Part shown: one piece after another, positions 52 to 62,963 of the stretch
How the letters are laid out: each line of letters begins with the position of its first letter
Numbering within the stretch: position 1 is the first letter of the stretch
NCBI GenBank assembly: GCA_021018995.1
Contig: CM037584.1
Location: 171,076,317-171,140,316, forward strand
DNA length: 64,000 bases
From: Chloranthus sessilifolius
Taxonomy: Eukaryota; Streptophyta; Magnoliopsida; Chloranthales; Chloranthaceae
Reading direction: 5' to 3'
Position numbers and translations under genes: made by a program
Notes under the pieces: generated by a model
Told to the model about the DNA's origin: nothing
Database searches by the model: none
The model's input: only the letters and a program-made list of their open reading frames with translations

Positions 52-221
52 CATGGTTCAAGATTTCGGCCGAAATGTTTCGGTTTCGTTCCCCACCGAA
101 ACTGAAACGATAACATATAATTTCGGTAACATATAATTTCGGTTCCCTATGTAGTTTTCAGCCGAAATTTCGGTTTCGGACCAGCCCGAAACCAAAACAA
201 AACCCGAATTTTTGATCCTTG
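52..221. mobile_element. A-family (TTTCGG-word) hAT-type MITE
   Basis: Ends CATGGTTCAAGATTTCGG and (reverse) CAAGGATCAAAAATTCG. Flanked by a perfect 8-bp duplication, GGCTCGCC (44-51, 222-229). The body repeats TTTCGG, CCGAAA and CCGAAAC in both orientations. 170 bp, no coding. Confidence 0.85.
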
Positions 222-479
222 GGCTCGCCCCTACATGAACTTATTTAACCGTAAAGAATAAAAAGTATTGGAGAATAAGATGTTAATTGAAACGAAGAGA
301 TCTACAAATTTTAAAAGGTTTAGCATATCAAAACTATCTTAACTATTATAGTGAGATGAGGCAGAATATATATATATTTTTATCTTCTTTCTCGCTCCTT
401 TGGAATAAGAATTCCCGTCTTTTTATCTAACTCCTTTATTTCCTTTTCCATTTCTCATTTTTTTACTGAACTACAATAA

Positions 480-660
480 AACCCTCTATATTCCGATCTT
501 TACCTCCTTCCGAAGCAACTTTAATTGTGGAAAACCTCTTTTGAGCATTTCCGGGTGGATTCAAAGAGGAACACCACTCTTTAACCAAACTATCAAATTC
601 CTCATTTTGCAGCCACACCATCAAATTTGAACGGGGTGAGTCCCTATTGACTCTTCTGTG
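480..660 (-). pseudogene. LINE-1 endonuclease-end remnant
   Basis: The minus-strand reading RSNLMVWLQNEEFDSLVKEW and following residues resembles the segment after the endonuclease of plant L1 elements (phenylalanine/tryptophan-rich, 'LVKEWW..S'). A short fragment only; the neighbouring E-type MITE starts at 671. Confidence 0.45.
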
Positions 661-670
661 AACTTTCAAC

Positions 671-1025
671 CATAGTAACAAAGTCGGGAGGCGGTTATAA
701 ATTGGCAAGGGTCTAAGTCGGAAAAAAACGGTCAAACTAGAAAAAAATCAGAGAAATTCAAAAATCCCAAAAAATATATCATAACATATTTCAAGTTATA
801 AATAATGGTTTTAATGAATAAAATAGTGCAAAATAGGAAAAACCTAAATTTCTTTTATGAACAAAATGAACCAAAATAGTACAAAACCTAAAGGCTTTTT
901 TCCATTTTAAGTATAAGTGAAAAAATGAAAAAATAAAATAAAATCAGACAACATTGCCAATTAATTGGCCGAGTCGCGACTTGGGCGATTAATCAGTGAT
1001 AAAGTAGGGGACTTTTGTGACTATG
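671..1025. mobile_element. E-family (AATCGG-word) hAT-type MITE
   Basis: Ends CATAGTAACAAAGTCGGG and (reverse) CATAGTCACAAAAGTCCCC. The body has GATTAATC and CGACTTGG words and a stretch that is the reverse complement of part of 31884-32284, the other copy. The flanking 8-mers CTTTCAAC/CTTAAACT match poorly. Confidence 0.7.
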
Positions 1026-1439
1026 CTTAAACTACTGGAACATGGTCAGAAACTGACCCAGGGAGTGCGGTGAGTAGTAGATTGGAGTAACATTGCTCCA
1101 CTACTAATTACAAGCAAACCGGTCTGATCGACATAGATTTGGAATCCCGACAACTTGTCCAAGGGAATATTACTACGATCATAACGATTTCCAATAATTT
1201 GCATCTCATCATAAAATTTCTAAACTTACTCATATTGAATCCATTCTACATCCCTCATTCTTTTCTCACAAAATCTTCCTTTCTACTTCCCTCATTCTTC
1301 GCATCTCAAAATCATAGTGTTAAAATGTCCGCTTATGTATCAAGGGGCATCCAATTTTTTGGCTCATTTGGTCCATAAACCACGAAGGGAACTGATAGTG
1401 TAGCTTTCTAGGAGTTGAGTGTAACCAGATCATGTGCAT

Positions 1440-2330
1440 CATGTTTGTATGATACAGGATAAAAGTTGTATAAGTTAAGGGTTGTACTGTACAAGGTCTA
1501 TTAAGCAAAGGAGGTAGACTTACCCTCATCAAGTCCACTCTCTCCTCTTTACCTATATACTACCTTTCCATGTTCAAAGCACTCGTTAAGGTCACTAGAT
1601 AGCTCGAAGCCATTATTAGGAGCTTCGTGTGGAACAAAGGCGATGAGTAAAAGAACCTCCACCTCATCAATTGGGAGGTGTGTTGTTTTCGAAGGGGACT
1701 TACGGATAAAGAAGATTGAGCCAATGAATATCGCCCTGTTGGGGAAATGGATCAGGCCGATGGGGTTGCAAAGTGAGCATCAGAAACTGTGGTGGCAAGT
1801 TGTTAGCAATAAGTAGGGGGAGGACGCTAATGGGTGGAGACCTATTGTAAAAGCAAAGAAGGGATCGGGATGGTGGAAAGGGGTGGCATCTGTCAGTAAT
1901 TTTTTTGGTCGTCAAGACCTTTTCAGCTGGGGCCTTGGGAGATAAAATCAAGTTCTGGTCAGATGTGTGGATTGGGAATAGACTTCTAATGGAGCAGTTT
2001 CCTATGGTCTATAAGATTACTCCTTTTCTGGGTCTACCTAGAAACCTGTGACCAACTGCTAGAAAATTAGTGTGGGGTTAGATTTGATGGGATTAAAGGG
2101 GATTTTTGGAGCATTATGGCTGTCATGTGGGCCATTTGGCTAGAAAGAAACGAGAGAATTTTTTGAAGGAAGTGTTGTCCTGTTCTCAGTATTTTGAGAT
2201 TTGCCAGAGACCTTGATGTGCAATGGGTCAGTCTTTTGGTCAATAAGATCAAGAGGGAGGGCAAGAAACTCTATGAAGGAATGGGAAAACCTGTGCCTTG
2301 AGTAGCCTTTTTTCGAAACATTTATTATAA
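1440..2330 (+). pseudogene. LINE-1 3' remnant (end of reverse transcriptase ORF)
   Basis: Plus-strand pieces read [20 protein letters not shown] and MFKALVKVT, then NIALLGKW, WWQVVANK, and later AVMWAIWLERNERIF near 2110-2165. These are the thumb, connection and C-terminal motifs of plant L1 ORF2. It is interrupted by stops and a deletion of the middle (around 2040-2060), and it ends in a T/A-rich tail near 2330. Confidence 0.75.
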
Positions 2331-2890
2331 TTTTTTTAATATAATAAGATCATCCAAACGACAGGAAATGAAGCACATGGATGAGAATGTTTAGCAGCTG
2401 ATGTTGTGTGGTGCAAGACAGTTGAAATGTTTAGTTGTTTAGATGATTTTTCAGATATATTTAATGATTAATGCTTCATAGCAATTGCATATTTGCATTA
2501 TATATTACTATATTGATGCCATTGTTGCATGATTTTTTTACATTTATGTTTGATAAATTGTCTCTAATTTATTAAAAATTTATATTTCTTGTAATTAAAA
2601 AAATTAATCAAGAGGCAAATGCCTCCCCCCTCACTACCTCTAACACTAAGCCCTATGCCTTTTCCTTTTATTACATTGGTGTAAATATAATGTTGAGCAC
2701 ATTTATGGCAATATTTTGCACATAAACCTAGTTCTAAGGCTTGTTACCCCCCCTGAATCCCAACCCAATAAAAAAAAGATGGTAAAAAAGGAAAAAAGAA
2801 AAGGGGTTTCAAGAAGTCAATCAAACAATACACAAATTCAGAAAGACTCTAACATAAACATTCAAAATGGTGATGTTATTTGCATAGATG

Positions 2891-3183
2891 CATAGTCACC
2901 AAATTCTCCGAATTTTTTAAAATTTGCAAGTAATTAGCGAATTTGAGGCTCTGAGAATTATTCACAAATTTTTCTAAAATTTGTGTTTTTAAATAATAGC
3001 GTAGTTTGCGAATAATTCATATTTTTTTCAATAAATCGTGTTTTTTAAATATTTTTCATACTTTTAAATCTTCTTTTAATTATTTATTTACTTTTTTTCT
3101 TCAATTTTTCTCCGAATATTTCCCGAACTTGCCAGTTTTTTTTTCGAATTCTAACCTTGCCGAACCCCAACTTGGTGACTATG
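2891..3183. mobile_element. D-family (ATTCGG/AATTCG-word) hAT-type MITE
   Basis: Ends CATAGTCACCAAATT and (reverse) CATAGTCACCAAGTT. Flanks CATAGATG/CAGAGATG (7 of 8). The interior is made of AATTTGCGAAT-like words. 293 bp. Confidence 0.8.
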
Positions 3184-4222: not shown

Positions 4223-7200
4223 CTAAAAGTAGAAGTACCAAATCTTAAAATACATTCAAGATAAATTCAATATTACCAAAGCTTACAGAAATGGTTGTGG
4301 AACTTCCGTTTTCCAAGCAACTTCAAAAACAGGTACACAGAGAAAAGACTATAGGATTAAGACACACTTTACCCACTGATGACTATGATAACCGCTGATA
4401 AAGTTTTCCATAATAATGGTTAAAAGATGCATTTGTTTATTTGTTCTCTTTCTTTTTCTGATCGGTTTTTGTTTATTTGTTCTTAATTTCTTTAAGAAGG
4501 CTTATTTATTACTTTTCTAACAGACTAAAGCATTTTCATTATAAAAAAATTTAGGCAAAACACCCTCATTCATCAATCACGGATCTAACCTAATGGTCGT
4601 TCTATGACCAGCTTTTTAGAGCACGGATTTGTTAGAAAAGCAACTAGGCTTGAAGCTAATCTGAATAGGATCCGTAGTTGTTTGTCAGGTTCGACTATCC
4701 ATAAACTCTTTATAAATAGATTAAACATTGGAAATGGAAAAAAAATATATAAAAAAATAAACTGTGCAAACTTGCTTCCAATCTGGCGACCGCTCGTGCA
4801 CAGACATCTGTGATCATGTGCTTGCCGAGGCAAGGGCGGTGCGTCACTTTCATTACCCACTCGCATGGAGGAGAAACAATGAAGTATAGAGAGGCGACTT
4901 AAAAGGAGAGAATTCATACATAAAGCAGCCAAAAGTTGGGAAGGCTAGTATAGACAGGTTTGCATATCCTCCTCTCTACAGGTGTGAAACCTGAGTGGGG
5001 ACTGGTTTTTTTGTAGTGTGTAGACCAGAGAAATTACTTATGATTTTTGGTCTGTTATCGGATCCATTTTTAAGAAGGCCAAGAACTTGAATTAAACTAG
5101 TTTCTAAACAGTGTATATGATATTGTAAAGACCTGAGGAATGTGAACTGTTATTACAGGTGTCGCTAACTGATTTTTTTATTTCAAGATCTGATAGAGAA
5201 TATAAAAGTGTTAAGGGTTATCTTACTCTTTAGGAAAGGGTGAATGATAAGATCCATTAGAATTTTGTTGGGAAATATCTGTAATGACAAACGTGTTAGA
5301 AACCAGTAATCTGCAATAACAGGCAAAATTTCTCAAGTCTGTATGCTACCAGATTCACAATTCCAAAAACAAAAATCAACTTCCCAACCTTCTTAAAAAC
5401 GGGTTTGATAACATACCAAAAAATCATATGAAATTTCTCTAGCCTATACACTATCAAAAAGAGGTCCCTACTGATATTTAGCACCTGAAGAGAGGGGATA
5501 TGCAAGCCCGTAACAACAGACCAAATTTCTCAGGTATGCAAAAAATGATTTAAAATTCAAAATACTTCTCAGCTCTGTACATTCATCCTCCTCCTCATCA
5601 CCATCATCGTCATCATCATTGTCATCATCATCGTCGTCGTCATCATTATCTGCAAGTCCTATTTATCCCCTCGTTTTTGTTCGGCGCTAAGCTTTCCATA
5701 ACACCACAATCCTTCATGGCACATCTCACTTACTTCCCTCCAGGTCTTCATTGGTCTTCCTCTTCTACTTCCTTGTGCTTGTAACATCTCAAAAATCGTA
5801 AGTTCTAAAAACATTTGGAAAATTCATGAATTACTTGAAAGATTTACTAGGTGACATTGAGATGATGCGATAATAATTCAATTCTCACCAATACCACCAT
5901 CATCAACAACCCCACAACGTGAGGAAGAATATAAGGGAGTAGGATCCCAAAAGTGTATTAAGGATTGTGATGAACACATTCTGTCCAATGATAGGAATGT
6001 CAGTATAATCCAAGATCTGCATGATGAAATAGAGGAGCTAAAAAGCATAAAGCTTCTGTTTGAATACAACCTATTGCATCACGATCTCTGTCTTCTCGAT
6101 GATCCTACAAGTTGTCTGAGTACAAAAGTGAACACTTTATTGATATTGATCGAGGAGGAGCAATGCCCTATTTACCACCTGAATTATTCTACATAATATA
6201 GGCAGGGATCTTGTTCCGGTTCTTATCATTCCTCTAGTGTTGCTTGTTTAGCTTTGGGCAAACACGCTTGTCAATTCTCTAATCCATCTGAATTTGAGAA
6301 GGCTATAGGAAGTGTCTGTTAAGGAAGGACTTTTCTATCAAGTCTCTTTTGCTCATCTTTGCCCATATACACCCGAAGTGGATGCACAGTGATGTCCTCA
6401 TTGAGTAGTTTTCCCATTGTTTTAACTGTGCGATGGGGCTAGCTTGCTTCAATCACAATGTCGAGACAAAACCTTCAACTGGAAGATACTATTTTGACGA
6501 TTTCTTATCCCACTCATTTGGGTAGCGTTTACTTGCTTTAACCAGCTGCAAGCAGCCACCAAAAGTAAAAATTCGGTATCAGCGGTCATATTAGACGCTC
6601 TAGAGCATGGTTGTCAATCTCTTACGATACACGAGATGATACGCGATATGATACTATAGAAAATGATACGTATCTATGATGTGTATCTTTTTATAACGGT
6701 ATCTTACGATACGTTACGATCCACGATACAAACGATACATGTTATTTCCGATTATAACTAGGTTTTTATTTAAAAACATTATCACTTATCTATCCCAACT
6801 TCACCTACAAAATATTTTAAAAAAAGTACGATAAAAATAATGAAAGAAGAGGAAGATGTCTATGAGAAGGAAGAAAAAAAAGAAAAAAATCATATTTAAC
6901 TGCTAACGAAGATGTTGGCGTCAATATTGGGTATAGAGATGAAGAATGTAGACATGGCTTTCTTTTTTTTTTAATTTTGGGATTCAAAACTGTAATGTGA
7001 AGAAACAAGTACAAAATTTCTATTGTGCAAGTTCGAAATTGAAAAACAAATAATATAGATATATATATATATACAAGTATACAATGCACACTCATACCAC
7101 ACTTATACTTCTGCAGTAATAAAGTTTCCTTTGGTATAGTGGAAAATTGAACAGTTTATGATTGTGACTGGATTTTCATCTCCACCTTATACATCAATCC

Positions 7201-10200
7201 AATGAAATGTTATGTTCCATTTATTGGATTTAAATTCTAGTTTCTAGCGTGACAAATGATGGAGCGAGTGTCTTTGAGATTGTTATACATATATGCATGC
7301 TATTTTTTTATTTTTAGAGTCTTTATATATACTTATATATATTTCATAAGATACACGTTTCGATAGGATACGCGATACAAAAATACTTAATTACGATACA
7401 CGATACGATACATGATTTGACAACCTTGCTCTAGAGTACCATTGTCGTTGATGCGCATCAGAGATATGGCATGATTTTTTGTTTAATTGAAAAAATCTGA
7501 AAAAAAATTCCTGAACTTTAATGTATGAACTTGTATTTTGATCTATATAAACTTACCGATGTAATTTATGTACTTATAATATTATAACTTTATAACGTTA
7601 TACCTGATAAAGTTATAGATACTATATAACTTTATGCTATAAGCCATATTAGCTTATTAAGTGCTTACTTAGAACTTTAATTTCAAGGGCTTCAGCATAG
7701 AAAAAAAAAAGACTGGGGCTTTTGTTCAGTAGAAAACACCAAGAAGAAGAGAAGAAGGAAGGATCGACATTTGGTCTATCACAGCAGGTATATGCATTTT
7801 TTTTCAAAACAAAACGTGATTTCACTTCTTTTTTCCAATTTTCTTCTTCTTGTAACCATTTTTTAACCCTAAAACAAGTGATTTCACAGTTTTTTTCCCT
7901 AAAACAAGTCTAGCATGTGCCTAGGTGTGCCTTACTTTCAAATATACCTTAGTTTCAATGTATGAACTTGTATTTTTATCTATATAAACTTAGCGATGTA
8001 ATTTATATAGCTATAATATTATAAACTTTATAACTTTATCCCTGATAAATTTCAAGGGCTTTAGTATAGAAAAAAAAAAGACGGCGGCTTTTGTTAAGCT
8101 GAAAAGACCAAGAAGAAGAGAAGGAGAAAGGGTCAACACTTGGCCTATCACAGCAGGTATGTGCATTTTTTTCTTTTGAAACAAAACGTGATTTCATTTT
8201 TTTTTTTCCCATTTTTCTTCTCTTGTAACCATTTTCCCCCCTAAAACAAGTGATTTCACCGTTTTTTTCTCCTCTTTTTCTAATTCCTGTTGCAGCCTGC
8301 AACCTTCTATTTTCTTTTTTTTTTCGAGGACCGGGACTCAGGGAAAGAGCAAGATCAGAGCCACATGGCACCCAAACACAAGTTTGGGTGCCACAGCCGG
8401 AGCAAGGTCGAATTGCCAAAGACTTTGGCGCATGGTCGATCCACAATCTTTCAAAAAATAAAAAATAGCATTGTCCCCAGTTTATCACAGAGTGGTCAAT
8501 GGTTTAAAAAATGAATGATGAAACACTTCAAATTCACCATTCATTTAACACCGTTAGATCGAGGGTGTACTAATTAGAAATGTAGAATACAATGATGTGG
8601 AGCATTCTTTTTAACTATAACTAATTATAATATATTTATAATTAAAATAAAAATGCGACTAGAAAAAATAAAAGGCCGTGTGCCTTAACACCTAGGCCAC
8701 AGGGAACTTGGCACCTCAGCTGTGCCTCACAGCTTTGACTACACCATAAATGACCTAGGCAAATATTAACATAGAAGTAGAATTTAGGCCTTGGCAAATG
8801 GAATTGAACTTGCCTCCAAGTATTGAATGCCTATTGTGGTGGAATCAGATTCCAAAAGTGGTTGTTGATACTTTTCAAAAAAAAAGAAAAGTGGTTGTTG
8901 ATGCTCTAGAAGGGAAGAGTTTTGCTTGGAAGGTGAACAAATGGGTAAGGAAGAGCAAAGCAGTCCTAGATTCTATGCAATGGAACCCATCTCACACTTT
9001 TAGTGAATCTAATGCCACAGCTGATCAACCAGACAATGAATTCTCTTATCCCCAAAATTTTTAATAAATCGAAGGAGCTCCCTCAAGCAGTACGTTTGAA
9101 ATTCGTAAGACCAATCATCTATATTCCCATCTTTCATATTCAGATAGATCTACGAGAGGAACTTTTGTGTCTTTGTTGTAACCTTCCTATTATTTATTTT
9201 AATGAATTTTTTGCTTAATAAGCCAAAAAAAAGTTCACATACATGTAATTACATACTATTGTACATAAATAATCACTACAGTAAGGTGTAATTAATAATT
9301 CACTGGTAAAAAGTGAACAATTTAATAAATTGAGTATTTTTATTACATAATACACAAAATGCAATGATAAACTTATAAACTGAATGATTGAGCATGATGA
9401 TGAATTAAAGTCTCTCCAACAAAACATCAACCAAGCCCCTAAACTCTTTTCTTTAGGCTACATGTTTTCAAACCGAAAAGGAGTCGGAACTTTTTGGTCA
9501 TGCGCACTAACGAATAGGAATGGGATCCGACACCAGTCTAGCCAAGCCCTTCAAGCAAGCATTATGAAAAAGAGCATCCCATGTTACCGAACAAAGAAAA
9601 TGATCAAGGTGGCATAAGATCGGATCATCCTAGATATGAGACCAACTAAAGTAACCGTTAGAGATAATATATTAAGTATGGTGTGCGTTAGAGTTGTAGG
9701 CAATATATTAATCCCATATTGGTTAGGAATGGAAATATATTAATGTAAGCAATACATTGCTTCTATTGAAATAGTCTCTTGTTTGCCTCTATATAAAGGG
9801 CAATCACATGTAATTTGATTATCTTGAGTAGAAGCAATGTAGTCTATTAGTGTTATTGTGCTCTCTCTGTCTCTCTCTCTCTTCTTCTCTTCTTCTCTTC
9901 TCTCTCTAATATACCTTAAATAGGTATTTATTCTCTTTAGTTTTTAGGTTATTTATGTCTACATGGTATCAAAGCCTCCCTTGGGCTAGTTTTTTTGCTA
10001 CATTTGTATCTCTTAGGGCATTAGGTTATTATTGCTAGTTTTACTTTTCATGTTTCCTGCACCATTGCTATTTTCATTTTGTAGTTGTTTGTCCTGCTGG
10101 AGCATCCATTGATTTAATGGGTTTCAACATCTTGATGTATATTTTCTGCAGCAGTCACGTGGAATCCTATTACAGCAACATCATTATTTTTACCTATGTT

Positions 10201-11280: not shown

Positions 11281-14200
11281 TATATTTTCTTCTTCTTTCT
11301 TTCTATCCTTTTTTATTCTTTCTTTGCTTTATTTTTTGCTTCTTTCTTTCTTTGCTTTCTTTCCTTATTTCCTTCTTTTTCTTTTCCTTTCTTTCTCCCG
11401 TACTTTCTTCCTTCTTTCTTCTTTCTGCTTTCTTCTTCTTTCTTTCTTTCTTTTTCTTCTTCTTCTTCCTCTTTCTTCTTCTTCTTCTTCTTCTTCTTCT
11501 TCTTTCTTCTTTCTTCTTAGGTCACTAAAGTCGACTCGGCAAGTCGACAAACTCGGCCGAGCTTTCGAGGCAACTCGGCGAGTTGACCGAGTCTCAGCCC
11601 AAATCGAGTCAATAGCCGAGTCGACCCAAAACTAGTTGAGTCGAGTCGACTCGCTTGAGTTCCGAGTCGACTCGGCGAGTTTTAAAACAGTGATCAAAGG
11701 TGCTGCCTTATGATTCATATTATTGTGCTTTGTGACCTGTGCAGCTTTGAACTACGTGAAGATCAATGTTGATGATGTATACAAATCTATGATGTTGCCT
11801 ACTCCATGAAGTTGAGGCCTCAAGATTCATGGTGAAGATTCGTGATATTACTGCCTGAAAATTTGTATTTATTGCTTCAAAATTCATGTCTACAACTCTC
11901 GACATACACATGCGATTGGATATTGCTCATTTCTTTGAGATCTGTGCCTCTCCCCCTCCATTTCTTTTATTTGTATGTGTGTGATGATGTGACAATTTTT
12001 TACGCTTGTTGTCCCTTCTAGTATTTGATGATGAGGCTTTTATTGCTATGCAGCCTTTTATCGGCCTTATGACCTTTGTCACTACTGTGATATGTAACCT
12101 TTTTTATCTACCTTATAGTCTTATATTTGCTTTATTAATATTAGGGGGAGATGGTTCAGAGTCCTTGTAATTGGCAACTTGAGCGTCATTCTCATTGATG
12201 CTCAACTTGAGGGGGAGTGTTGGAGATAATATATTAAGTATGGTTTGTGTTACAGTTGTAGGTAATATTAATCCCATATTGGTTAGGACTGGAAATAGTG
12301 TCTTGTTTACCTATATATAAAGGGCAATCACATGTAGCTTGATTATCTTGAATAGAAGCAACGTAGTCCATTACTGTTATTTATGTCTACATGGTATCAG
12401 AGCCTCCCCTGGGCTAGTTTTTTTGCTACATTTGTATCTTGTAGTGCATTAGGTTATTATTATTAGTTTTACATTTCATGTTTCCTGCATCATTGCTATT
12501 TTCATTTTGTAGTTGTTTGTTCTGCTAGAGCATCCATTAATTTAATGTGCTTCAACATCTTGAGGGATATTTTTTGCAACAGTCACGTGGAATCTTGTTA
12601 CAGCAACATCATTATTTTTACCTCTGTTCTCTCACATGTTCATGTCGATTGTGTTTAAAGATGTGTTCTCAACAATTTTCCTATTTTTGTGGTTGTCATC
12701 TTCATCCCAACAACAATAGTTTCATCTTAGCATCTTGTTTTTCAGCATTGTTTCTCAGCAGAATCTTTGTATCATGTTTACTTGCAAGAACAACTGCATC
12801 TTATCTCTCATTTCTTAGCTTTGCTTTGATACATCCGCTGCATGTTGTTCTTCCTGGTCAAACCATCAAATCCCTCTAAACAACGTTTATTTTTTCTCGG
12901 GCATTTCATCAATAAGATTCTGTACACCTTGTTTTCATATAAGCCTATAGCTTCCTCCATTATTCTTTATTTAAAATAAAAATAGAGAGATGGAGAAAAA
13001 AAGTGACATGAAGATGGGTTTGCAAAAGCTTTTTTTGCCTTATCAAATCCTTGGGTACATCCTCAACATGTTGCTCACCACCCACGTAGATTAAAAGCAA
13101 TTCATGACTTCATATCTGCTCTGTCAACATTTCAATATTGGGTGAAAACTCACTCAAGGTCAGATTAATGAGAGAAAGTGGGGTTGTAAGAGATATACTA
13201 AGCTTAAAGAAGAGAGATAAGCATTTTCAGCATAAGGCAAGTTCCTTGCACTGCAAGCAAATGCATATGGATGTATTTTTTGGCTGATACGAATCCCTTG
13301 GATTGGAAGTGCACTTATATTTGGGGACTTTGTTTGTTGGGTCTTTTTGCGTACATAGCGGCACTGGCAAGCTCACTGCTTCAGTTTGCTTAGAATCTAT
13401 CTTGCTGCTATCTTTTGTCTCCTTTTGTTCTTGTTGCTACTCCTACTCTAGTTGATGATACTACCATGAGATCCGGGAACCTATGGATAATACTTTGAAA
13501 TCCGTATTTGCTTGAAATTTGTTAACGTGCTACCTAGAGACTTGTTGTTGTGTACTGTTTCTGGTGCTACCTTAAGATCCATATTATTGTGCTTTGTGAC
13601 CTGTGCAACTTTGAACTACATGAAGATTACTGTTGATGATGCATCAAAATCAGTGATGTTGCCTACTCCATGAGGTTGAGGCCTCAAGATTCATGCTGAA
13701 GATTCGTGATATTGCTGCTTGAAAATTTGTATTTATTGCCTCAAAATTCATGTCTACAGCTCCCGACATACACTTGCGATGGGACGTTGCTCATTTCTCT
13801 GAGATCCGTCTCTCCCCCTCCATTGCCAATTTATATTTGTATGTGTGATGATGTGACACAGGTTTTAACGCCTGCTGTCCCTCCTAGTATTTGATGATGA
13901 GGCCTTTGCTGCTATGCAACCTTTTATCGGCCTTATGGCCTTTGTCGCTACTATGATATATAACCTTTTTTATCTACCTTATGGTTTTATATTTGCTTTA
14001 TTAATATTAGGGGGAGATGGTTCAGAGTTTTTATAATTGGCAACTTGAGCATCATTCTCATTGATACTCAATTTGAGGGGGAGTGATGGAGATAATATAT
14101 TAAATATGGTGTGTGTTAGAGTTGTAGGCAATATATTAATCCCATATTGGTTAGGAATGGAAATAGTGTCTTGTTTGCCTCTATATAAAGGGCAATCACA

Positions 14201-17200: not shown

Positions 17201-20200
17201 TGTAGCGAAGAATTCGATAAATTGCGGCCATATAAGGAACCCTGGAAGAATGCATAAATTGAGCCACCAAAGAAACGACAAATGTCAGGTCAGGTCATGT
17301 GTTGGTAACGTAGATAAGCCTTCCAACAAGCCTCTGACACTCAGAGGGATTAGGCAAAAGATCTCCAAAATGAGTATGAAGGTAATGTTTAGGATTCATG
17401 GGAGATTTAGTTGGCTTACATCCAAGCATGCTAGTGTCCCTGAGTAACTCAAGAGAATACCGTCTCTGAAATAGAGAAATGCCTCGATCGGATCTCCCAA
17501 TCTCAATGCCCAAGGCGCAAATATTTCACATCGAAGGCTTTATGCAGACCAGCCTTCACATGAGCTATAAATGCAACATCATCACCTGTGATGATGATAT
17601 CAACATAGATGAGCAGAATCGTACGAAGCCTAGTAGAACTAGTGTGAATGAAACAAATATGATTGCAATGACATCTCGTGAATCCCATGGTGAGAACAAC
17701 GGTACTGAAGTGATGGAACCGGGCCCTAGGAGATTGCTTCAACCCATAGATGGACTTCAGAAGTTGACATTCTTTCCCTGAATACTCCCCCTTACGTTGA
17801 TAGCCAGGAGGCGGTGACATATAGATTTCCTCTTCCAAGTACTCGTGAAGAAATGCGGTCTTCACATCTAGCTGATAGAGAGGCCAATAATGGTGTGCAA
17901 CAAGAGGAATGAGAACACAAATGTAGACACAAAAAAGTTGTCTTTCTTTTTTTATTATAAATAAATTATACAAACATATATGTTAGGTTTTTAATCTTTT
18001 TAACTATGGATATACAGATATAGATTTGTATTATAGACACAAATAGCTTGTCATTTTTTTTGAATAAATGATACAAACCTAAATGTTAGGTATTTAATCT
18101 TTTTAAATTATATATAGATATGGATTTGTATTGTAGACAAGATTTGTCTCTTTTTTTTTGGATGAAGTAAAAAATAAAAATAAAAAGATAAACAGAAGCC
18201 CACGCAAGAAACCACAAAGGAATTATCTCTGGAGAATACACAAAAGATTTGTGTCTTCTTTTTGGATAAATTAATATATAAAGAAAAAGAGAAGAAAAGG
18301 ACACAAAAAGATTTGTCTTCGGAGAAGACACAAAAAAATTGTCTCTTTTTCAGAAGAAATGACCCACGCAAGGATGCCCATGCGTGGGTCTCCTTCATCT
18401 TTTTATTTTCTCTTTCACTTTCTCTCTCCCTATTTTCTCTCTTTCTTGTCTCTCTTTTTTCTCCCCTTCTTTCTCTCTCATGGCCACGCATGGACCCCCC
18501 TACGTGGGTCATCTCTCTTTCTCTTTTCTTTCTTTCTTTCTTTCTCTCTCATGGCCACACCAAGGATCAAAAATTCGGATTTCGTTTCGGTGGGGACCCA
18601 AAACCGAAATTTTGGACCGAAATTTCAGCCTAAATTTTGAATTTCGGCCAAAAACTTGCTACAATGCCGAAAACTACAGCGTTTTTGAGTTTTCGTTTCG
18701 GTTTCGGTGGGGACCGAAACAGAAACATTTCGGCCAAAGTCTTCAGATTTCGTCTGAAATTTTGAACCATGGCCCGCACAGGGGACCCCCTACGTGGGTC
18801 CTCTCTTTTCTTTCTCTTCCTTCTCTCTCATGGCCCATGCAAGGGACCCCTACATGGGTCCTCTCTCTTTCTTTCTTTCTCTCGTCTATCTCCTCCAAGG
18901 GCCCATGAAGGAGACCCCCTGCATGGGTTCCTTCCATTTTTCCTTCTTTTTCTCTCTCCTCCAAGAGCCCACATAGGGGACCCCTGCGTGGGTCCCCTCC
19001 CTCTTTATTTTCTTCTTTCTCTCTGTCTCTCTCTCCTTTCTCTCTCATGACCCACGCAGGGGAACCCCTACGCGGGTCCCCTCTCTCTTCATGACCCACG
19101 CAAGGGCCCATCCTGCACTGATCCTTCAATCTTTTCTCTATCTTAGAGACCCCCACGTCTCTCTTATTTTAATTGATCAATAAAAAATAAACCCTCATGG
19201 GGCTTATCCATGAACTTTGAATTTGCACTGTGGATTTATTCCGGAGCGCGGTTGACCATCATATTTAACTTCTGCGGTCAACCAATAATTAGAAGCCGGC
19301 CCCTCGGCATCTAGGTTCGAATTCTAAGTCAAATCACTTCTACTTTGACTTCTTCTCCCTCTTTTCTTCTTAAGGTAAACTTAGATTTATATGGGCCTGC
19401 TTAGGGTCCATGGCTAAGTTATTTCTCTTCGGCCTCGTCCGGGACTATGTGTCCTATGATAGGTCCATGCCCATCCTTTATGCCAAGGTTATAAATCCGG
19501 CACTATCTGGGCCTATTATAGGCCCATGCCCGCAACCCTTACATAGATGGGATATACATAGGACTATATGGGCCCACGGACCTATGCCTAAAACCCTTAT
19601 ACGTATGGGTTGCATTTATCAACATAAAGTTGATCCTTCACATAAATTGGGTTGCAATTATAGAACCAAAGAAAACTTTAGTCGTGAATACCCCATCTTG
19701 ACCACGATTGACTTCGGCCATCCATCGCATATCGCGATCGCAATCAACATAATTTACAACATTTTTCTATACACAATTACAGTCATCGGATTATCGGGTT
19801 TATGCCATACTTGAAATTGGAATGTCAAATCCAACGATGGATGCGCTGATTTTTGGTCAAACGATCATAACGCGATCCAACGGTGGATTTATCATATCTT
19901 GACCGAATCTTAGGATATTGATCAGATCCAACTATGGATGCGTTGAATTTGGTCAAACGATCATGATACAAGATTGTAACGCGATTCAACAGTGGATTTA
20001 TCATACTTTGACCAAATCTTAGGATATTGGTCAAATCCAACGATGAATGCGTTGACTTTTGCTCAAACGAGAAAGCTATAAGATCGTAACATGATCCAAC
20101 GGTGGATTTATCATATATTGACCAAATTTCATGGTGAATTCGTCTAACTACACTAGAATATGATCAAAATTCTCAATGAATTCCAAGGAATTCAATAACT

Positions 20201-25320: not shown

Positions 25321-25877
25321 CGCTAATTTTTACTTTCCTAATTAACAACAAAAAAATGGTTAGTGGACGAGCTAAAGTATCTCCAATTCATGATTTATTA
25401 ATAACAAAAAACACAAATGAAAATCGATTAAGCATGATAAATATACAAAGATATTCAGTTCTTGATCATATACTATAATAATGTAGAGAGGAATCAAAGA
25501 GTTAGCAATATACAATCACAAGATCAGCACATATGATATCTTCTAATAGGCACAACCGATAAGAAACAACCATTTACACATACAGTATCTTCTAACAGGG
25601 ACACACACACGTGCACACCCACATGCCTGCATACATGCCCACACACACCCACATAGCATGCATGCACATGGCACGTAGACTCCTTTAAGCCCAGGATAAG
25701 CTACAGCCTTTTGGAACAGAAGGTATAACCACATCAAATGATATGTATCAAGCATTAATCGCTTGTTAATATTAGAATTTCATGAACAATTTATAGTGAC
25801 TGTAAGGGGTACTAGGAAGTATCAACCCGGATACTAGCTTTGAAAATCTAAGTTCGTGATTGCAAGCCTCTCTGAAT

Positions 25878-26165
25878 CATAGTCACCAAGCGGGGTACGG
25901 CAATAATTTGGCAAGGTTAAAATTTGGAAAAATCCGGCAAAATTAGGCCAGGTCGAGGGAAAATTCAGAGAATAAAAAAAAGAATTTATTTAAAAAACTC
26001 TGAATTATTCATGAATTATTCGCCAATTTTCGCGAAGTTCACGAATTTTTAAAAAACATACAGATTTTTTAAACATTCGTGAATAATTCGTGATTATTTC
26101 GTAGAAACTTAAATTTCACAAATTATTTGTGAATCATCAAAAATTCGAAGAATTTGGAGACTATG
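25878..26165. mobile_element. D-family hAT-type MITE
   Basis: Ends CATAGTCACCAAG and (reverse) CATAGTCTCCAAATTC. Flanks CTCTGAAT/CCCTGAAT (7 of 8). Inner words AATTCGTG, TTCGCGAA. Confidence 0.82.
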
Positions 26166-26599
26166 CCCTGAATCATCATATGTTACTCTTCATAAAAGGA
26201 TACATCATGTCAAGTGAAGATTCCTTATTTTGATACTACGGGAGGCTTCAACACTGTACATGTGACTACTATGAAGGAATATTTCCCTCCCATATAAAGG
26301 GTGGGACTTTTCTATGTAGCTTAAAAATTAGAACTTAAAAGTGAACAGAACAATAAAAGATAATTTTTATCAGAAACTTCAAAAGCTTTAACTTTACATT
26401 TTAAAACATATAATCACATGTGAAAATACATTAATTTGCTAAAAGGAACATAGCTATAAGTCATAACAGTTCCATATGCATATAAATTCCTGGAAATGCT
26501 ATATATAACCTTCTTTCTATTAGCTCCATGCCTATGCTCTCACAATCCAGGAGATTTAAATTGGGCCTCATGGAAGGAGGTGGAAGGAACAGAAGGGGA

Positions 26600-27000
26600 G
26601 GAAATATCATTTCTCCGACTTAATTTATATAATATCAAGAAGAGGGAATGTGAGGGCTGATTGTTGGCATGTCCATAGCATTCTTTATTAGTAGGTGTGC
26701 GTGTGTGAGCGTGTGTGTGTGTGTTAGTGTTCTTCATTAGTGGGTATGTAAGTAATAGTGGGTGTGTGAGTATAATATTGTTAAGGTGCATATATACAAA
26801 TGAAAAAAGGGTATGAGATTATTAGCTCATAACTCTAATTTCTGTCTCTCCTCTTCTCTTCTTCTTCCTCTCCAGCCTAACCCTAATTAAACATCACTAT
26901 GTTAGCTTGGTAATAGAGCTGGACCATTTACACATGTTAATCTTGCTGACGTCAACTTCCAGCTGCTGACATCAGCATGATGTCACACTGACGTCAAAGG
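26600..27000 (+). repeat. Copia LTR end and primer-site-like sequence (fragment)
   Basis: A pyrimidine-rich end with CCAGCCTAACCCTAATTAAA, then TGGTAATAGAGCTGG at 26908, close to the initiator-Met primer site. A (GT)n run is at 26696-26730. The following 60 bp hold several TGACGTCA/TGACATCA words. The upstream limit is unclear. Confidence 0.35.
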
Positions 27001-33348: not shown

Positions 33349-33558
33349 CAAGGGTCAAAATATCGGGTATCCGATACGTATCGTCCGAGCTCCAAACCGA
33401 TACGTATCGGACGATACATATCGGAACAGTAACTTACCGGACGATACATTGAATGTATCGTCCGGGCATTTATATGTAAAATGGACGATACGGCATTTGA
33501 ATATACCGTATCGTCCTGGTCCAATACCGATACGTATCGGACGAAATTTTGACCCATG
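33349..33558. mobile_element. C-family (GATACGTATCGG-word) hAT-type MITE
   Basis: Ends CAAGGGTCAAAATATCGG and (reverse) CATGGGTCAAAATTTCG. Perfect 8-bp duplication GTCACAAT (33341-33348, 33559-33566). The second duplicate has the empty site with a single GTCACAAT (34314-34321). The body alternates GATACGTATCGG and CGTCCGG words. Confidence 0.92.
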
Positions 33559-46139: not shown

Positions 46140-48194
46140 TATAACATCCTGAAAATTTTGACTTTAGAGAGTAAACCTTGGGATGCGTGCCCACCTGGTT
46201 ACTTATGCGATCAAGTGATAGTCAACTTGAGAGAAAACCAAACTAAATGAATTACCTGAAAAGGGTTGATTTTCTGTCAAAATCGATTAATTGATTTAGA
46301 AATCGATTAATCGATTTTTGACAAAAAGTAAATCTGAGAACTACAGTACGAAACTGATTAATCGAATTAAATTTTGATTAATCGATTTTTGGGTTCGATT
46401 AATCGATTTCAAATCGATTAATCGACTGGGCACTGCCAGTGGCTAAAAAAGTTTGTTTTTTTAGAAAACCGATTAATCAATTTTGTGGTCAATTAATCAA
46501 TTTTGGAATTTCGATTAATCGATTTTGGGGTCGATTAATCGATTTTGACTATGTTTGCCGACACTGCTTCGATATTTCGACCGTAAATTTTTACTCCGAA
46601 CTCTGATTGACGTAATTCTTATGCCGTTGGAAAGAGGACAATGAACTCTATAACTGTTGTGATTTAATCATTTTGTGAATCCAAATATTTAAAGGTCAAA
46701 CTTTAGGAGAAAAATTACGTCAAACTCTATTTTAGCATGAACTAGTCCATTTCTATCTCGTTTTTTGATAAACACTTAAATAAGTTTAGATTTTAGTGAG
46801 TAGAGTTAATTTTTGATGCATCATGGTGTATTTGTGATGTAGATTGAGGGCATGAAATCGTCAATAAGGACTGTGGTGTCGTTTTGAACGGCTCCATGCG
46901 TGAGGTTGGAAACGCCTTGAACATGTATTTAAATAGCAAGAGCATATATGTAGTGATATAAAAATGAGTACTTATGCATCAAGAATATGAATCTTAAGTG
47001 TGTATGTGTGTGAACACAAAGTAAAGTAAATAAGTATGTGACGTCCCCAGGGGATGTGAATGTGATAAAAGCATCTATGTGATGCATTGAGTTGGACATC
47101 CCAGGGATGTATGTAAAAATGTAAAGCAAAGTGAATTGGATTAATAAGGTCTATTCTACTATAATTAGCACAATTACACGATGAATAACTATATATTGTG
47201 CACTTTTGATATTTAAGGTTTGGAGAATATCCCACCGACGTGACGGGATACCCACGACTGACTCAACAGAATATCCGTGATCAATACGGCGGCCAATCCG
47301 TATACCAGTTGCACATCCTAGGGATATATATATGAGACTTAAACCACGTCGCCTATGAGAAAGAAACCTGGGTAATATTGAATGAATGAAAAAGAATATG
47401 AAAATTGTCTGTTTAGATGACGATGAAAGGTATTCCATCGGATGCCCGATGTTATAGTAAATCGGGAAATATTTAAGCTATGATTTAAGTCTTTAGGCCA
47501 AGTCATTATTTTATATGAGCAAGTTGAGAACAAATGAACACATGTAAAATAATAGTAACATTCAGTGCATCTTTTCAGTCATTTAAATTATTTTCCAGTT
47601 AATTCATTGATACATCATGCTGCTAAATATCATAGAATATATGTGAGAGATTAACTTATATGTTCATTTAGTTATTTCCCTATTGAGCTAGGATGTAGCT
47701 CACCCTTTAGACTATATGTCGCAGGTCTTATACTTACAGCTGCTACTACTTCGGGAGGCGTAGATATGGAGGATTCGGATTACGTACATAGAGAGGAATT
47801 GGAGCCCCCTCCTCAGGACTTCTTCTATGAGATCCGTGCGTACTTTGATATAGTTTTGAGAAAGTACTGTGCGGCTTGGTATAGCAAGCCATTTTTGAGA
47901 AAATGTAATTAAACCAGGATACATTCTTTTGGCGAACCATCCAGGGTAGCTGTTGTATCGCCACTGATGGTTCGGGTGAGTTCTTTTGCTCATGCGTTGG
48001 CATAAGACTAAAACCATCTTTTGAGTTATTCTTTTTTATGATTATATATATAGAATTGGTGATTTAGATTAATTTAGTTCTTATGCTTTCTTGTTGCTTG
48101 GTTATACCAATGTTTCGTGTAGGCTTATGGGGCACAACCTTGAGGGTCGTACTGATGACATGAGTTTCGGAGTGTCAAAATTCGAATTGTCACA
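46140..48194. mobile_element. Solo LTR, 2.05 kb, probably gypsy
   Basis: Begins TATAACATCCTGAAAATTTT and ends GTGTCAAAATTCGAATTGTCACA-like; perfect 5-bp duplication GAGGC (46135-46139, 48195-48199). Long LTRs with these mirror-like ends and a GAGCTAGGATGTAGCTCACC block are typical of gypsy elements in plants. Has a CGATTAATCGATTT word array at 46255-46555. Confidence 0.78.
46255..46555. repeat. CGATTAATCGATTT word array
   Basis: About a dozen near-copies of the self-complementary CGATTAATCG embedded in TTTTGG/AAATCG context within the solo LTR. Confidence 0.85.
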
Positions 48195-51375: not shown

Positions 51376-51548
51376 TAAGGATCAAAATTTCAGCCAAAAT
51401 GACCAAAATTTTGGTCCAAATTATTGGTTTCGGTCCTCACCGAAATGATAATTTGGACCGAAATTTCGGTCATATTTTGTATGGGATTCAAATTATCGGC
51501 CGAAATTTTGGCCAAATTATCGATTATTGGCCAATATTTTGATCCTTG
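51376..51548. mobile_element. A-family hAT-type MITE
   Basis: Ends TAAGGATCAAAATTTC and (reverse) CAAGGATCAAAATATTGG. Perfect 8-bp duplication GTACCATC (51368-51375, 51549-51556). TTTCGG and TTATCGG words. Confidence 0.86.
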
Positions 51549-51942: not shown

Positions 51943-52049
51943 TGACCTTATGCACTGTGTTTCTTTTCTGATTTTGTATGAAGCCCCCAGGTTTTATCTC
52001 ACGTGCGAAACAATGCTTTAAAACAACAGAAATGGCGTCTCTTCTTTGC

Positions 52050-52260
52050 AACATATCAAGTATCGGCCCATACTGATACGGATTGGTTTTTTGGCCAACC
52101 GATACATATCATCTCCGATACGTAATTTGTATCTGATTCGGTATCAGCCGATAAATCTATTATTATAATTTTTTTTAAAGGGCCAATGATATGTATCGGC
52201 TAATTTATTTCCATTCTTCATGGACCGATACTTGAAACTGATACCCGAGTTGACACCATG
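52050..52260. mobile_element. B-family hAT-type MITE
   Basis: Ends CAACATATCAAGTATCGG and (reverse) CATGGTGTCAACTCGGG. Perfect 8-bp duplication CTTCTTTG (52042-52049, 52261-52268). Words CCGATAC, GTATCGGC. Confidence 0.87.
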
Positions 52261-56879: not shown

Positions 56880-57196
56880 AAATCGGACCGAACCGCACCG
56901 AAAACTGATTGAAACTGAACCGAACCCCAGTTCAGTTCGGTTCGGTATAGGGTGATAAAAAATGAAAATCATGAGGGTATGATGAGTAAACCAAAAAAAC
57001 TGAAAAAACACGTTAAAAAATTATTAAAAGTAGGTAAAATACCCACACCAAATCGAACAGTGGTTTCGGTGTCGGTTTCAAAAAAAAAAAAAAAATACCA
57101 AACTGAACCAAATGGGTTTCGATGTGGGGGGTATCGAACTGAAGACTGAAAAAATTAGTTTCGATTCGATTTTGTACACCGAATCTGCATCCCTAA
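56880..57196. mobile_element. G-family (GTTCGG-word) hAT-like MITE
   Basis: Ends CAAGGGTCTCAAATCGG and (reverse) TTAGGGATGCAGATTCGG. Both subterminal parts are rich in CGGTTCGG, CCGAACC, GGTTTCGG. An A-run lies centrally. Abuts the gypsy LTR end. Target duplication not evident. Confidence 0.65.
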
Positions 57197-58662: not shown

Positions 58663-58795
58663 CAAGGATCAAAATAGTGGATTTCGTTTCAATTTCGGTC
58701 ATGATTGAAACTAAAATTTTGAATGAAATTTTCCCTTTAATACATTTTAGAACTGAAATTTAAGTTCTCGATTTCAGCCGAAATTTTGATCCATG
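58663..58795. mobile_element. A-family hAT-type MITE
   Basis: Ends CAAGGATCAAAATAGTGG and (reverse) CATGGATCAAAATTTCGG. Flanks GTGCAAGG/GTGCAGGT (6 of 8). Only 33 bp from the C-type copy. Confidence 0.72.
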
Positions 58796-59589: not shown

Positions 59590-59857
59590 CATAGTGCCAA
59601 ATTTCGCCGAAATTCGGCAAAATTTCGCGAAATGGGGGTCAAACGAAAATTTTGGGAAAATTTCGGTTTTCGGTATTTTTCGGTAAATTTCAATATTTTT
59701 CGGTAAATTTTTTAAAAATATTTTTAAAAATATTAAATATATATTTTTAATCCCCGAAACTTTCCCGAAATTTTTCCAAAAAGTATCGAAATCAATCCGA
59801 AATGTACCAAAAGGACCTCCCATCGAAAAATTCCCAAAAACAAAATTTGTCACTATG
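59590..59857. mobile_element. D-family hAT-type MITE
   Basis: Ends CATAGTGCCAAATTTCGCC and (reverse) CATAGTGACAAATTTTG. Perfect 8-bp duplication CTTCTAGG (59582-59589, 59858-59865). AATTTCGG, TTCGGTAAATTT words. It sits inside an older CGGTTCGG-word element spanning about 59490-60105. Confidence 0.86.
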
Positions 59858-60554
59858 CTTCTAGGTAAGGTGAGTAAGCTGAAAAAAAATTAAAAAAACA
59901 AACAAATTAAAAAAATAAAGAAAAACCAAAAATTAAAAATCGAACTAACTAAAACCGAATTTGGATTGGTTCGGTTCAATTTCCGTTTGGGGGTTGAAAA
60001 GTTCGATTAACCGAAACATTTCAGTTAGGGTCCGATTTTGTAAAAACCAACCCGAAAACCAGAATTTCGGTTGCGGTTGGGTTTGATTAACTGCACCCCT
60101 ACTCAGGGACTTAATCCCCGAAGCAAAAATCCAATCCAAGCATTTTAATTAGAACCTATCTTAACCAAAAAATCAAGCCTATAACTTTATAAGGCTGCGT
60201 TTGGAAATGTGGATTTGGATTTGGATCTCCAAAATCCAAATCCACAGTTTGATTCCCCATTTTTGTGTTTGAATTTAGATTTGGTAAATCCACCGGAATT
60301 TAGAAATCAATGACTATATTGTAAAAACGTGGATTTGTAAATGACACCTCTTAGGCGTTATTTGAAAATCCAAATCTTACACCAACATATAATTGGTTAT
60401 ATTTAGTGAATAAAAAATTGTTACCCAGTGTTATCATAGGTACGATTCGACCTGATACCGAAACCGACCCGTACCGATAGTACCCAACCCGAATTAAAAA
60501 GAATTGAATTGGGATGAACCGGTGTTATCATAGGTACGATTCGACCTAGTACCG

Positions 60555-60775
60555 AAACTGACCCGAACCGATGGTACCTAACCCGAATTAAACCGAACTG
60601 AATCGGGCTGAACCGGTAGTAAATGGACCGAATTGAATAGGTACCAGACCAAACCAGACTCGACCCGAACCGATGGTACCTAACTCGAATTAAACCGAAC
60701 TGAATCGGGCTGAACCGGTAGTAAATGGACCGAATTGAATGGGTACCAGACCAAACCAGACTCGACCCAACCCGA
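60555..60775. repeat. Tandem duplication of about 107 bp
   Basis: ACCCGAACCGATGGTACCTA, AACCGAACTGAATCGGGCTG, AACCGGTAGTAAATGGACCG and CAGACCAAACCAGACTCGAC occur twice nearly unchanged, so this is a young duplication. Confidence 0.85.
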
Positions 60776-61305: not shown

Positions 61306-61840
61306 TTTCTCTTGAACCCAAACCTAACCGAACTGAACACCGAAAAATTCGGTTTCAGTTCGGGAACGGTTTATGCGTTAGAGGAATTTGGTGTACCGAA
61401 TCCAATACTTATATATTTCAGTTTAGTTTCGATTTGTGGTGTACCAATCCGAAAACCAAAAAAATCGGATTCGGTTCAATTCAGTATACTGAATTTGCAT
61501 CTCTACCTATATAAAATGAAGGAAACCAATGAAATATAAATTCTTTTTATAAAAACAGATAGTCAAATGAAGTATCTATAAATCCTTGGGCCAAATCTTA
61601 AGGTAATACTTAAGCATCCAAACAAGAAATTTGCAAATCTAAATATTTTAAATTCTAAATTTGAAATGCTTGAATTTGAATTACTTGAATTTAAAATCCT
61701 CAAATCTAAATCTACGTTCTCAAACGCAGCCTAAGAGCTTTGAAATCATCTGACTGGTATGCTTTAGAATTAATCAGTGAAAAAAATATTCACAACAGTC
61801 CGTATTAGCATTCATAAATTGGATGGGTCAAATCCTCCAA

Positions 61841-62127
61841 GAGCATCTCCAGCAAGGATAACTTAATTTCAATAGTTAAAACTGTTATTAAAAGAATAGC
61901 TAAAGCTCTCTTTTAATTATATTTTATTAATAACAAATGGAGTAAAATTTGCTAAAGCTCTCTTTTAATTATATTTAACAAATGGAGTAAAATTTGTTAT
62001 TAATAGCAGTGAAGAGGGACTCGCCAAAAATGGCGAATCTGCTGGACCCAGAATCTAGCTCTTCAATTGCCAAAATTGAGATTTTGCTGCGTTTTTGTAC
62101 TTATAGAGAATCTGATGCAGATGCTCT
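61841..62127. mobile_element. MITE with GAGCATCTCCAGCA ends (possibly Harbinger-like)
   Basis: Ends GAGCATCTCCAGCA and (reverse) GAGCATCTGCATCA, flanked by CAA/TAA, compatible with a 3-bp TAA duplication. Contains a 65-bp internal tandem duplication (GCTAAAGCTCTCTTTTAATT twice). Confidence 0.55.
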
Positions 62128-62233
62128 AATGATTATAATCTACCTTTGATGTGGGTTAGATGCATTGCATTGGTAAAGTAAAATGCCATTGTGCTACAAA
62201 TTGGGGTCGCCAAGCCATATTATTGAAGGACAC

Positions 62234-62534
62234 CAAGGTATCAAAAATCAGTCGATACCGGTACATATCGGCGATACATATTAATTTTTCAGTAAGGCAA
62301 TATGTATGGATTTTTTAGTAAAGCGATAGTATCGGTATCCCAATTTGGGTATCAGATACCGTATCTGCCAATACGTATCGGGTATCTGCCGATAGGTCTC
62401 GGTTTCAATTGAGACATTGAGTTTTTTTTTTTATTTTTTTAAAAATAGGCCAATATATCTGTATTGGTATTGGCCAAGTTGTATTGGTCTTGGAAAAACC
62501 GATATCCGAGACCGATATCGATTTTGATACCTTG
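62234..62534. mobile_element. B-family hAT-type MITE
   Basis: Ends CAAGGTATCAAAAATC and (reverse) CAAGGTATCAAAATCG. Words GATACC, TATCGG, CCGATA. Flanking 8-mers do not match; instead ACAC/GTGT extends the inverted repeat by four bases. Confidence 0.75.
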
Positions 62535-62548
62535 GTGTTATATAATCG

Positions 62549-62722
62549 CCAATTTTTGGTAGATAATTTTGCAAACACTTATGTGGCGTGATGAAATTGC
62601 CTGTACAAATAGTGGGGCCGAAACATTTCAGCCAATTACGTCACGCCACAAAAGTTGTCTGCAATGCAGCCAATTAAGTCACACCACATTAGTTGTCTGC
62701 AAAATTGTCTACTAAAAATTAT
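62549..62722. mobile_element. M-family foldback MITE, second copy
   Basis: Arms TTTTTGGTAGATAATTTTGC and GCAAAATTGTCTACTAAAAA; middle ATGTGGCGTGATGAAATTG with TACGTCACGCCACA. The right arm module TTGTCTGCAA..GCCAATTAAGTCAC is duplicated. Confidence 0.65.
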
Positions 62723-62772
62723 TCACCGTTTATATTTTTTCGATTTTGTTTTGATTTCTTGGTCCGGGTAAG

Positions 62773-62963
62773 CATAGTCACCAAGTCGGGGTTTGACAAT
62801 GATTCGGCGAAGTTAAACTTCGGAAAAATTCGGCTAAATTTGAGAACATTCACGATTTTTTACAAATTGGCCGAAATTTTAAAAAAATTGTAAATAATTC
62901 GGGATTAATTTGTAGAGTCCAAAATTCACAAATTATTCATAAAAATTTAAGGAGACACCCATG
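62773..62963. mobile_element. D-family hAT-type MITE
   Basis: Left end CATAGTCACCAAGTCGGGG. Right end CATGGGTGTCTCC in reverse. Flanks CGGGTAAG/CTGGTAAG (7 of 8). ATTCGGC words. Confidence 0.75.

Follow-up and report, generated by a model that had tools for sequence, protein, structure and literature searches.

In this study, a 64,000-nucleotide stretch of the Chloranthus sessilifolius genome (GCA_021018995.1, contig CM037584.1, forward-strand positions 171,076,317 to 171,140,316; G000:C1:171076317-171140316 in our coordinates; hereafter the window) was found to carry a real, large set of miniature inverted-repeat transposable elements (MITEs) of hAT type. The elements inserted with duplication of 8 bp, and empty sites of two relatives were found at other loci. 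In transposase-bearing hATs of the same genome with TAGGG-like ends, short lineage-specific words are confined to the element ends and pair with the transposase lineages. We consider it probable that the window holds non-autonomous hAT MITEs and element ends whose words are putative BED zinc-finger sites, one word per transposase lineage, carried by the dependent elements. A preliminary description of the window had proposed that each word is the binding site of a different but related transposase, and this central idea is supported for the transposase lineages reached here, i.e. the TAGGG-ended hATs.

The insertions were assessed by their target site duplications (TSDs) and terminal inverted repeats (TIRs). 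All eleven perfect 8-bp duplications named in the preliminary description are present and flank inverted termini, whose ungapped match is 7 to 13 of 14 positions, the weakest pair (31884-32284) being shifted by a 2-base gap. Most of the eleven have CA...TG tips, with TA at one tip of 51376-51548 and TG/TA in 24763-25176. A de novo scan under strict limits (up to 2 differences in 12 TIR bases and 1 in 8 TSD bases) returned 9 pairs, against 0, 0, 1, 0 and 1 in five Markov sequences, although two of these pairs (24542-27240 and 25456-27430) seem fortuitous; under looser limits the scan returned 11 elements, against 0, 0, 3, 0, 1, 2, 2, 1, 0 and 0 in ten Markov sequences, and the two scans together recovered 7 of the 11 perfect-TSD elements. 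Among 40 terminus pairs from the window and from the loci described below, some of them mispaired, 11 shared at least 6 of 8 TSD bases in register, a level reached by none of 120 out-of-register comparisons and by about 1% of swapped pairs, thus flanking 8-mers do match better than controls. Seven further duplications had been described as having one mismatch; of these, 2891-3183 and 25878-26165 were recovered, two further elements (18561-18771 and 58663-58795) have two mismatches, and the rest were not sought singly. Maize Ac/Ds elements duplicate 8 bp, and hAT elements prefer targets of the form nTnnnnAn; by reading, the second TSD position is T in 9 and the seventh is A in 4 of the 11 perfect TSDs. 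Thus the window elements have the 8-bp TSD of the hAT superfamily and, with the exception of one TG tip in 24763-25176, its short TIRs with CA/TA...TG/TA tips, and they are short (72-414 bp, with the exception of 6606-7428 at 823 bp) and non-coding as expected of MITEs. Five hAT transposase queries gave no match in the window (tblastn, E 0.001), and comparing it with Rfam under gathering thresholds returned no hits.

The best proof of insertion is provided by empty sites outside the window. Eight loci were examined, of which two held a TSD-bounded element and the other six held none. In the first (L051), a TATCGG MITE (2482-2698) with a perfect TSD lies inside a DUF659-type transposase exon, and 17 other loci cross the joined site ungapped. 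In the second (L022), a CATAGTG-ended TTTCGG MITE (942-1209, TSD 7 of 8) has its empty site crossed ungapped by 11 other loci, and the window element 59590-59857 is 88% identical to this nested copy over all 268 bp. Together with the 8-bp duplications, these empty sites support insertion of hAT type. Across the 2.17-Gb assembly (32 contigs), the terminus CAWGGNTCAAAA with a TCGG no more than 30 bases further on gave 43,318 matches (18,322 + 24,996), compared with 133 (68 + 65) for the reversed pattern; since several matches are possible per terminus, the true number of termini is somewhat below 43,318. High copy number thus holds for the CAWGG family, the only one counted. Matches to the CAWGG-type terminus, here without a TSD, also occur in the DUF659-type loci L054, L058 and L066, and the presence of this terminus type in four such loci (with L051) may reflect a nesting preference. 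A further CAWGG terminus, 1.78 kb upstream of a BED match at C1:1250292, had been a candidate mark of a partner transposase, but it may be only a nested MITE, and the lead is weakened because the same terminus belongs to the nested MITE of L051 and occurs in the three loci without TSD.

The genome was also searched for the PF05699 hAT dimerisation domain, giving 4130 first-look candidates, of which 150 were scored. Four of six fetched loci combine a transposase gene, TIRs and perfect 8-bp TSDs (L039, 1176-5775; L041, 1604-6369; L043, 845-5725; L044, 746-5643), while L040 and L042 have one end each and gave no TIR/TSD pair. Pfam found PF05699 (dimerisation) and PF14372 (RNase-H) in L039, L043 and L044, and also at the place of L041, thus TAGGG-ended elements have relatives that encode a transposase. 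In all four TIR-bounded elements the lineage words are concentrated within 350 bp of either tip and are almost missing from the interior: counts in the first 350 bp, last 350 bp and interior are 7, 8 and 0 for GCTCGG in L039, 10, 3 and 0 for TCGGGC in L041, 4, 7 and 0 for TCGGGC in L044, and, in L043, 10, 7 and 0 for TCGGTT and 14, 4 and 2 for TTCGGT. Each end of a single element carries the words in both orientations, and the interior of about 4 kb is nearly free of them. The expected concentration of words in subterminal zones is therefore borne out for the lineage hexamers of these four elements. Aligned on TCGG, the flanks read GC|TCGG|CTC in L039 and GT|TCGG|TTT in L043, while L041 and L044 have a weak front followed by |TCGG|GC(T/C). 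Change therefore occurs on both sides of the core, and the proposal that specificity diverged only through the bases before a fixed core is not supported in that form.

The pairing of words with transposases was examined in 36 loci, comprising the 30 best PF05699 loci and the six fetched ones; lineages with PF05699 matches of 246, 267 and 270 bp are barely sampled. Three word sets, taken from the TIR-bounded elements, were counted up to 1500 bp downstream of each locus, and 31 of the 36 loci received a label (the others being L009, L011, L019, L033 and L034). On the tree of the domain the labels require 3 changes, compared with a mean of 14.3 after shuffling, and none of 200 shuffles was as low, which agrees with the prediction that hexamer families would pair with transposase clades, here in TAGGG-ended hATs. 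The word lineages on the tree are GCTCGGCT, TCGGGC and TTCGGTT. The 14 TCGGGC loci form one branch (97/95) and the 10 GCTCGG loci fall within one clade of 12 (99/98), while the 7 TTCGGT loci are split between a four-member clade (100/100), the L029/L042 pair (100/97) and L022, a member of the GCTCGG clade that is mislabelled because of its nested TTTCGG MITE. When hexamers were ranked by enrichment with no prior choice of word, the lineage word came first in 17 of the 30 best PF05699 loci and within the top three in 21.

The termini follow the same division. When the loci were scanned for TAGGG-like ends leading into a TCGG array, the GCTCGG clade gave ends of the TAGGGCTGCAACCGAGC type (8 of 12 loci), the TCGGGC clade ends of the TAGGGCTGTCAACGGGCC type (11 of 15) and the TTCGGT clade ends of the TAGGGATGCAGGTTCGGT type (4 of 4), with a TAGGGGTGTAATCGGG end in L042; TIRs therefore vary in step with transposase lineage. 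The gene-downstream ends within one lineage are clear homologues (z 70-162), the two ends of one element barely align (z 4.5-8.1), and most comparisons between lineages show no homology beyond shuffles, with modest scores for L016 and L042 against L018 (z 4.7 each) and for the 5' end of L039 compared with one L043 end (z 3.2). Between L042 and L043 the TTCGGTT-type ends reach z 14.7, and window element 52-221 scores z 5.8 with L042 and z 2.9-4.6 with TTCGGTT-lineage ends. Two window pieces are tied to the sampled TTCGGTT transposase lineage by the homology of their ends at 57195 and 61505 to the gene-downstream ends of L043, L035 and L021 (z 11.5-34.3), while their scores with the other L043 end are only z 2.2-3.2. 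The former piece (56946-57195, minus strand, end TAGGGATGCAGATTCGGTGTAC...) is homologous to that lineage's terminal sequence over the 250 bp compared, its inner limit not being established, and the latter (61318-61505, minus strand, TAGAGATGCAAATTCAG...) is an old end with about 70-72% identity to the TTCGGTT-lineage ends of L043, L021 and L023.

While the preliminary description had the bodies of the window elements consisting of one short word, this applies strongly to three of the 11 elements in the word test, in which the commonest hexamer was compared with 200 dinucleotide shuffles per element. These are 52-221 (ten TTTCGG in both orientations; TIR CATGG/CAAGG; TSD GGCTCGCC, 8/8), 22810-23016 (seven TATCGG; CAAGGTATCAAA/CAAGGTGTCAAA; TSD AACTTGTC, 8/8) and 33349-33558 (11 GTATCG and 7 TATCGG; CAAGGGTCAAAA/CATGGGTCAAAA; TSD GTCACAAT, 8/8), where 1, 0 and 0 of the 200 shuffles, respectively, reached the commonest hexamer. 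Repbase contains word-rich non-autonomous hATs named SIMPLEHAT, to which such elements may belong. Five others have TCGG at more than twice the expectation and no dominant word. In 18561-18771 (nine TTTCGG; CAAGGATCAAAA/CATGGTTCAAAA; TSD 6/8), in the 72-bp MITE 21434-21505 (CATGGATCAAAA/CAAGGATCAAAA; TSD ATATCCTT, 8/8) and in 58663-58795 (CAAGGATCAAAA/CATGGATCAAAA; TSD 6/8), 37, 62 and 96 shuffles reached the commonest hexamer; in the CATAGTCACCAA-ended 2891-3183 (TSD CATAGATG/CAGAGATG, 7/8; weak words of ATTCG type) and the CATAGTG-ended 59590-59857 (TTTCGG/ATTTCG; TSD CTTCTAGG, 8/8) the commonest hexamer is A/T-only. Eight of the 11 tested elements thus hold TCGG at roughly double its frequency in shuffles or above, and the claim that all words end in TCGG fails for the remaining three, whose commonest hexamers are likewise A/T-only. 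The 823-bp element 6606-7428 (TIR CATGGTTGTCAA/CAAGGTTGTCAA; TSD CTCTAGAG, 8/8) has TCGG once and GTATCG/TATCGT as its commonest CG word, the CATAGTCACCAA-ended 25878-26165 (TSD 7/8) has no TCGG and words of TTCGTGA type, and the 397-bp element 29018-29414 (CAGGGTTACC/CAATGTTACC; TSD GTTCTGAC, 8/8) has the word GGTTCG and 4 TCGG against 2.7 expected. A common core of TCG, rather than TCGG, fits better across the window elements.

Four elements were assessed through TCGG clusters instead, namely 24763-25176 (414 bp, degraded tips; TSD TTTACTAC, 8/8; mixed TCGG words), the CATAGTCACAAA-type element 31884-32284 (TSD GTCCTGGG, 8/8; AATCGG at 8 of 11 clustered TCGG sites), 51376-51548 (TAAGGATCAAAA/CAAGGATCAAAA; TSD GTACCATC, 8/8; TTTCGG at 5 of 6 clustered sites) and 52049-52260 (TSD CTTCTTTG, 8/8; TATCGG at 6 of 8 clustered sites). 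In addition, an ACTCGG cluster (7 of 8 TCGG sites) lies at 11536-11675, known as a cluster only with termini not established, and a CAAGGTATCAAAA-ended TATCGG element lies at 62234-62534, where the flanks AAGGACAC/GTGTTATA show no TSD.

The different words around a TCG core, one per lineage, look like lineage-specific docking sites. Under the explanation that we prefer, a transposase supplied in trans would excise non-autonomous elements and reinsert them with duplication of 8 bp in a cut-and-paste manner. Its N-terminal BED zinc finger would dock on the word array, presumably with cooperative use of many sites, each lineage reading a word of its own built on the common TCG(G) core, and a non-autonomous element would bear the word read by the lineage on which it depends. 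Differences in binding may thereby isolate families, and the CAWGG and CATAG families may obey the same rule through other transposases. In Hermes, the bases are contacted by S66, N67 and R70, just before the zinc ligand H71, according to the structural details drawn from PMC10368747. The residues matching these contacts read TTTLKRH in L039, where a stop splits them from the first half of the finger, TSHLKRH in L040 and L044 (and also in L045 and L053), and TSGLRGH in L043. Such lineage differences in the presumed BED helix are consistent with changed specificity, though they are far too few for a test. Pfam recognised a PF02892 BED finger in L044 only, and the L044 BED segment, used as a sequence query against the PDB, returned nothing at E up to 1. 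A tentative proposal, to which we give less than even chances, is that this one genome holds a series of hAT lineages in which subterminal word and BED recognition helix altered in concert while the TCG core stayed fixed.

Several results weigh against the docking-site explanation. Pfam found no BED match in L039 and L043, where the finger is our own reading of the Cys/His pattern; the lineage word was not among the top three hexamers in 9 of 30 loci (L009, L011, L017, L019, L022, L023, L024, L027 and L033); and these two points together slightly lowered our confidence both in this explanation and in the joint change of helix and word. In the interiors of the four TIR-bounded elements the TCGG core by itself is present 7 to 21 times, and several TSD-bearing window elements have no dominant word. 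The word sets were derived from four elements that are themselves on the tree, and copies within a clade share ends by descent, therefore the pairing amounts to about three or four independent word-lineage pairs. TTCGGTT-type words occur in two separate lineages (L021/L023/L035/L043 and L029/L042), either by ancestral retention or because the word was reached twice, as seen for L042 (1006-1153) and L043. Among known systems, some maize Ds1 elements without the hexamer still move, and seven named Ds-l3/Ds-l4 elements gave no excision band although their class is mostly hexamer-bearing, as reported in the relevant sections of PMC3260210; in addition, the data presented in PMC8097297 include hAT BED proteins whose preferred motifs are AT-rich or GCGC, so a CGG core is no rule.

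Alternatively, the words might be relics of descent, with ends inherited, arrays grown by replication slippage and a transposase that reads only the terminal inverted repeats. The plain homology of gene-downstream ends within a lineage, the partly regular spacing of the words (hinting at 10-11 bp steps in a small sample), the frequency of short tandem repeats in the window and the mobile Ds1 elements lacking the hexamer would all suit such an origin. However, words in both orientations stand at both ends of one element though these ends barely align, they are nearly absent from the 4 kb between, and the mostly non-homologous ends of different lineages have the TCG(G) core in common, thus we regard descent and slippage as an unlikely source of the words. 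It is scarcely credible that the clusters reflect only low-complexity sequence or chance, with no mobile elements involved. Although twelve of the 4-mers containing two or more G/C surpass TCGG in cluster number, several of them commoner or microsatellite-like, the window has 24 tight TCGG/CCGA clusters where 20 Markov sequences gave 0-2, and among CpG-holding 4-mers ATCG (27), TCGG (24) and TTCG (20) stand before the next at 9; the TSD and TIR controls and the 43,318 against 133 genome-wide matches tell against chance, and for two families the empty sites refute it. For the CAWGG and CATAG families alone, and compatibly with docking sites in general, one or a few transposases might move all members, with TTTCGG, TATCGG, TCTCGG and AATCGG arising by drift around a loosely read TCG. 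Among the matches listed, the same CAWGG.TCAAAA terminus directly precedes TTTCGG, TATCGG, TCTCGG, AATCGG, ACTCGG or ATTCGG across copies, and no CAWGG-bounded transposase, nor one for the CATAG family, was found among the loci examined, which also counts against extending docking sites to these families. On the other hand, the two bases before TCGG are consistent (0.71-1.0) in 10 of 12 stretches, these having been picked for their words, and words follow transposase lineage in the TAGGG-ended hATs, so drift under few transposases is possible but somewhat doubtful.

Binding of a short subterminal motif by its own transposase is already known for hATs, and the present case is a rich new example. 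The Ac transposase binds AAACGG hexamers, three copies of which are needed at the 5' end, and Ds1 elements have only the TIR and a few hexamers in common with Ac, as stated in the parts of PMC3260210 that concern these ends. The elements described here likewise combine a short TIR with subterminal hexamer repeats, although binding, known in Ac, is here putative; and unlike Ac with its one hexamer, this genome has at least three words, and some MITE bodies are word-dominated. According to the binding data given in PMC3143072, Herves transposase binds CGATTCAT, and the Tag1 motifs TGACCC and AAACCC differ in affinity for Tag1 transposase. Herves, Tag1 and Hermes all have transposase-bound short subterminal motifs that vary between elements (PMC3143072, PMC10368747), but these are single elements of different species and their motifs, as given in those accounts, have no common TCGG core. 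Among hAT-derived CGG-binding proteins the motifs are diverse, mostly with CGG, and four hAT proteins have motifs matching their own subterminal regions, according to Yellan et al. (2021, PMC8097297); that set consists mostly of animal host proteins and hAT-19-type elements studied in vitro, while ours is one genome seen through element anatomy alone. In a partial literature search, itself weak evidence of absence, we found no comparison of subterminal words across the hAT lineages of one plant genome. If helix and word did change together, MITE termini in their tens of thousands would preserve a record of former specificities, and the lineage series could yield a recognition code for BED fingers and show how transposase families become isolated. 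Several word lineages and word-bearing MITEs within one genome would permit a statistical test of zinc-finger residues against DNA words, and the non-autonomous copies would let the history of cross-mobilisation be read.

Other arrays were seen near transposase genes. Arrays of AGATCTAC, mostly in 21-bp steps, lie upstream of a BED exon in L047, L048, L052, L060, L061, L062, L067, L069 and L071, and are replaced by ACATGTG or AACTAAA arrays in related BED/DUF659 loci with nearly identical BED fingers. These three arrays were candidates for words outside the TCG type and are not counted as subterminal; in 6 of the 9 loci the AGATCTAC (AGATCT) array is preceded within about 60 bp by a splice-donor-like GGTACGT, and arrays behind it are probably intronic. 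In TCGGGC-lineage loci (L018, L020, L024-L026, L030, L031, L036 and L038), a second array of AAGACC and/or ACAGGT/AACCTG lies downstream of the transposase, in most cases separating the gene from the TCGGGC array. L009 and L011 carry the hAT dimerisation domain in open frames of 681 and 687 aa, with no word array nearby, and look like host-adopted transposase genes. Tandem arrays of AATCGATTAATCGATT type occur in the window (46280-46548) and in L033, L040 and L065 with no recognised bounding termini, and a CCGAACC-rich tandem repeat of 94-102 bp, also without recognised termini, occupies window positions 60428-60772. The window also contains a copia-type reverse transcriptase fragment (PF07727) at 17503-17973.

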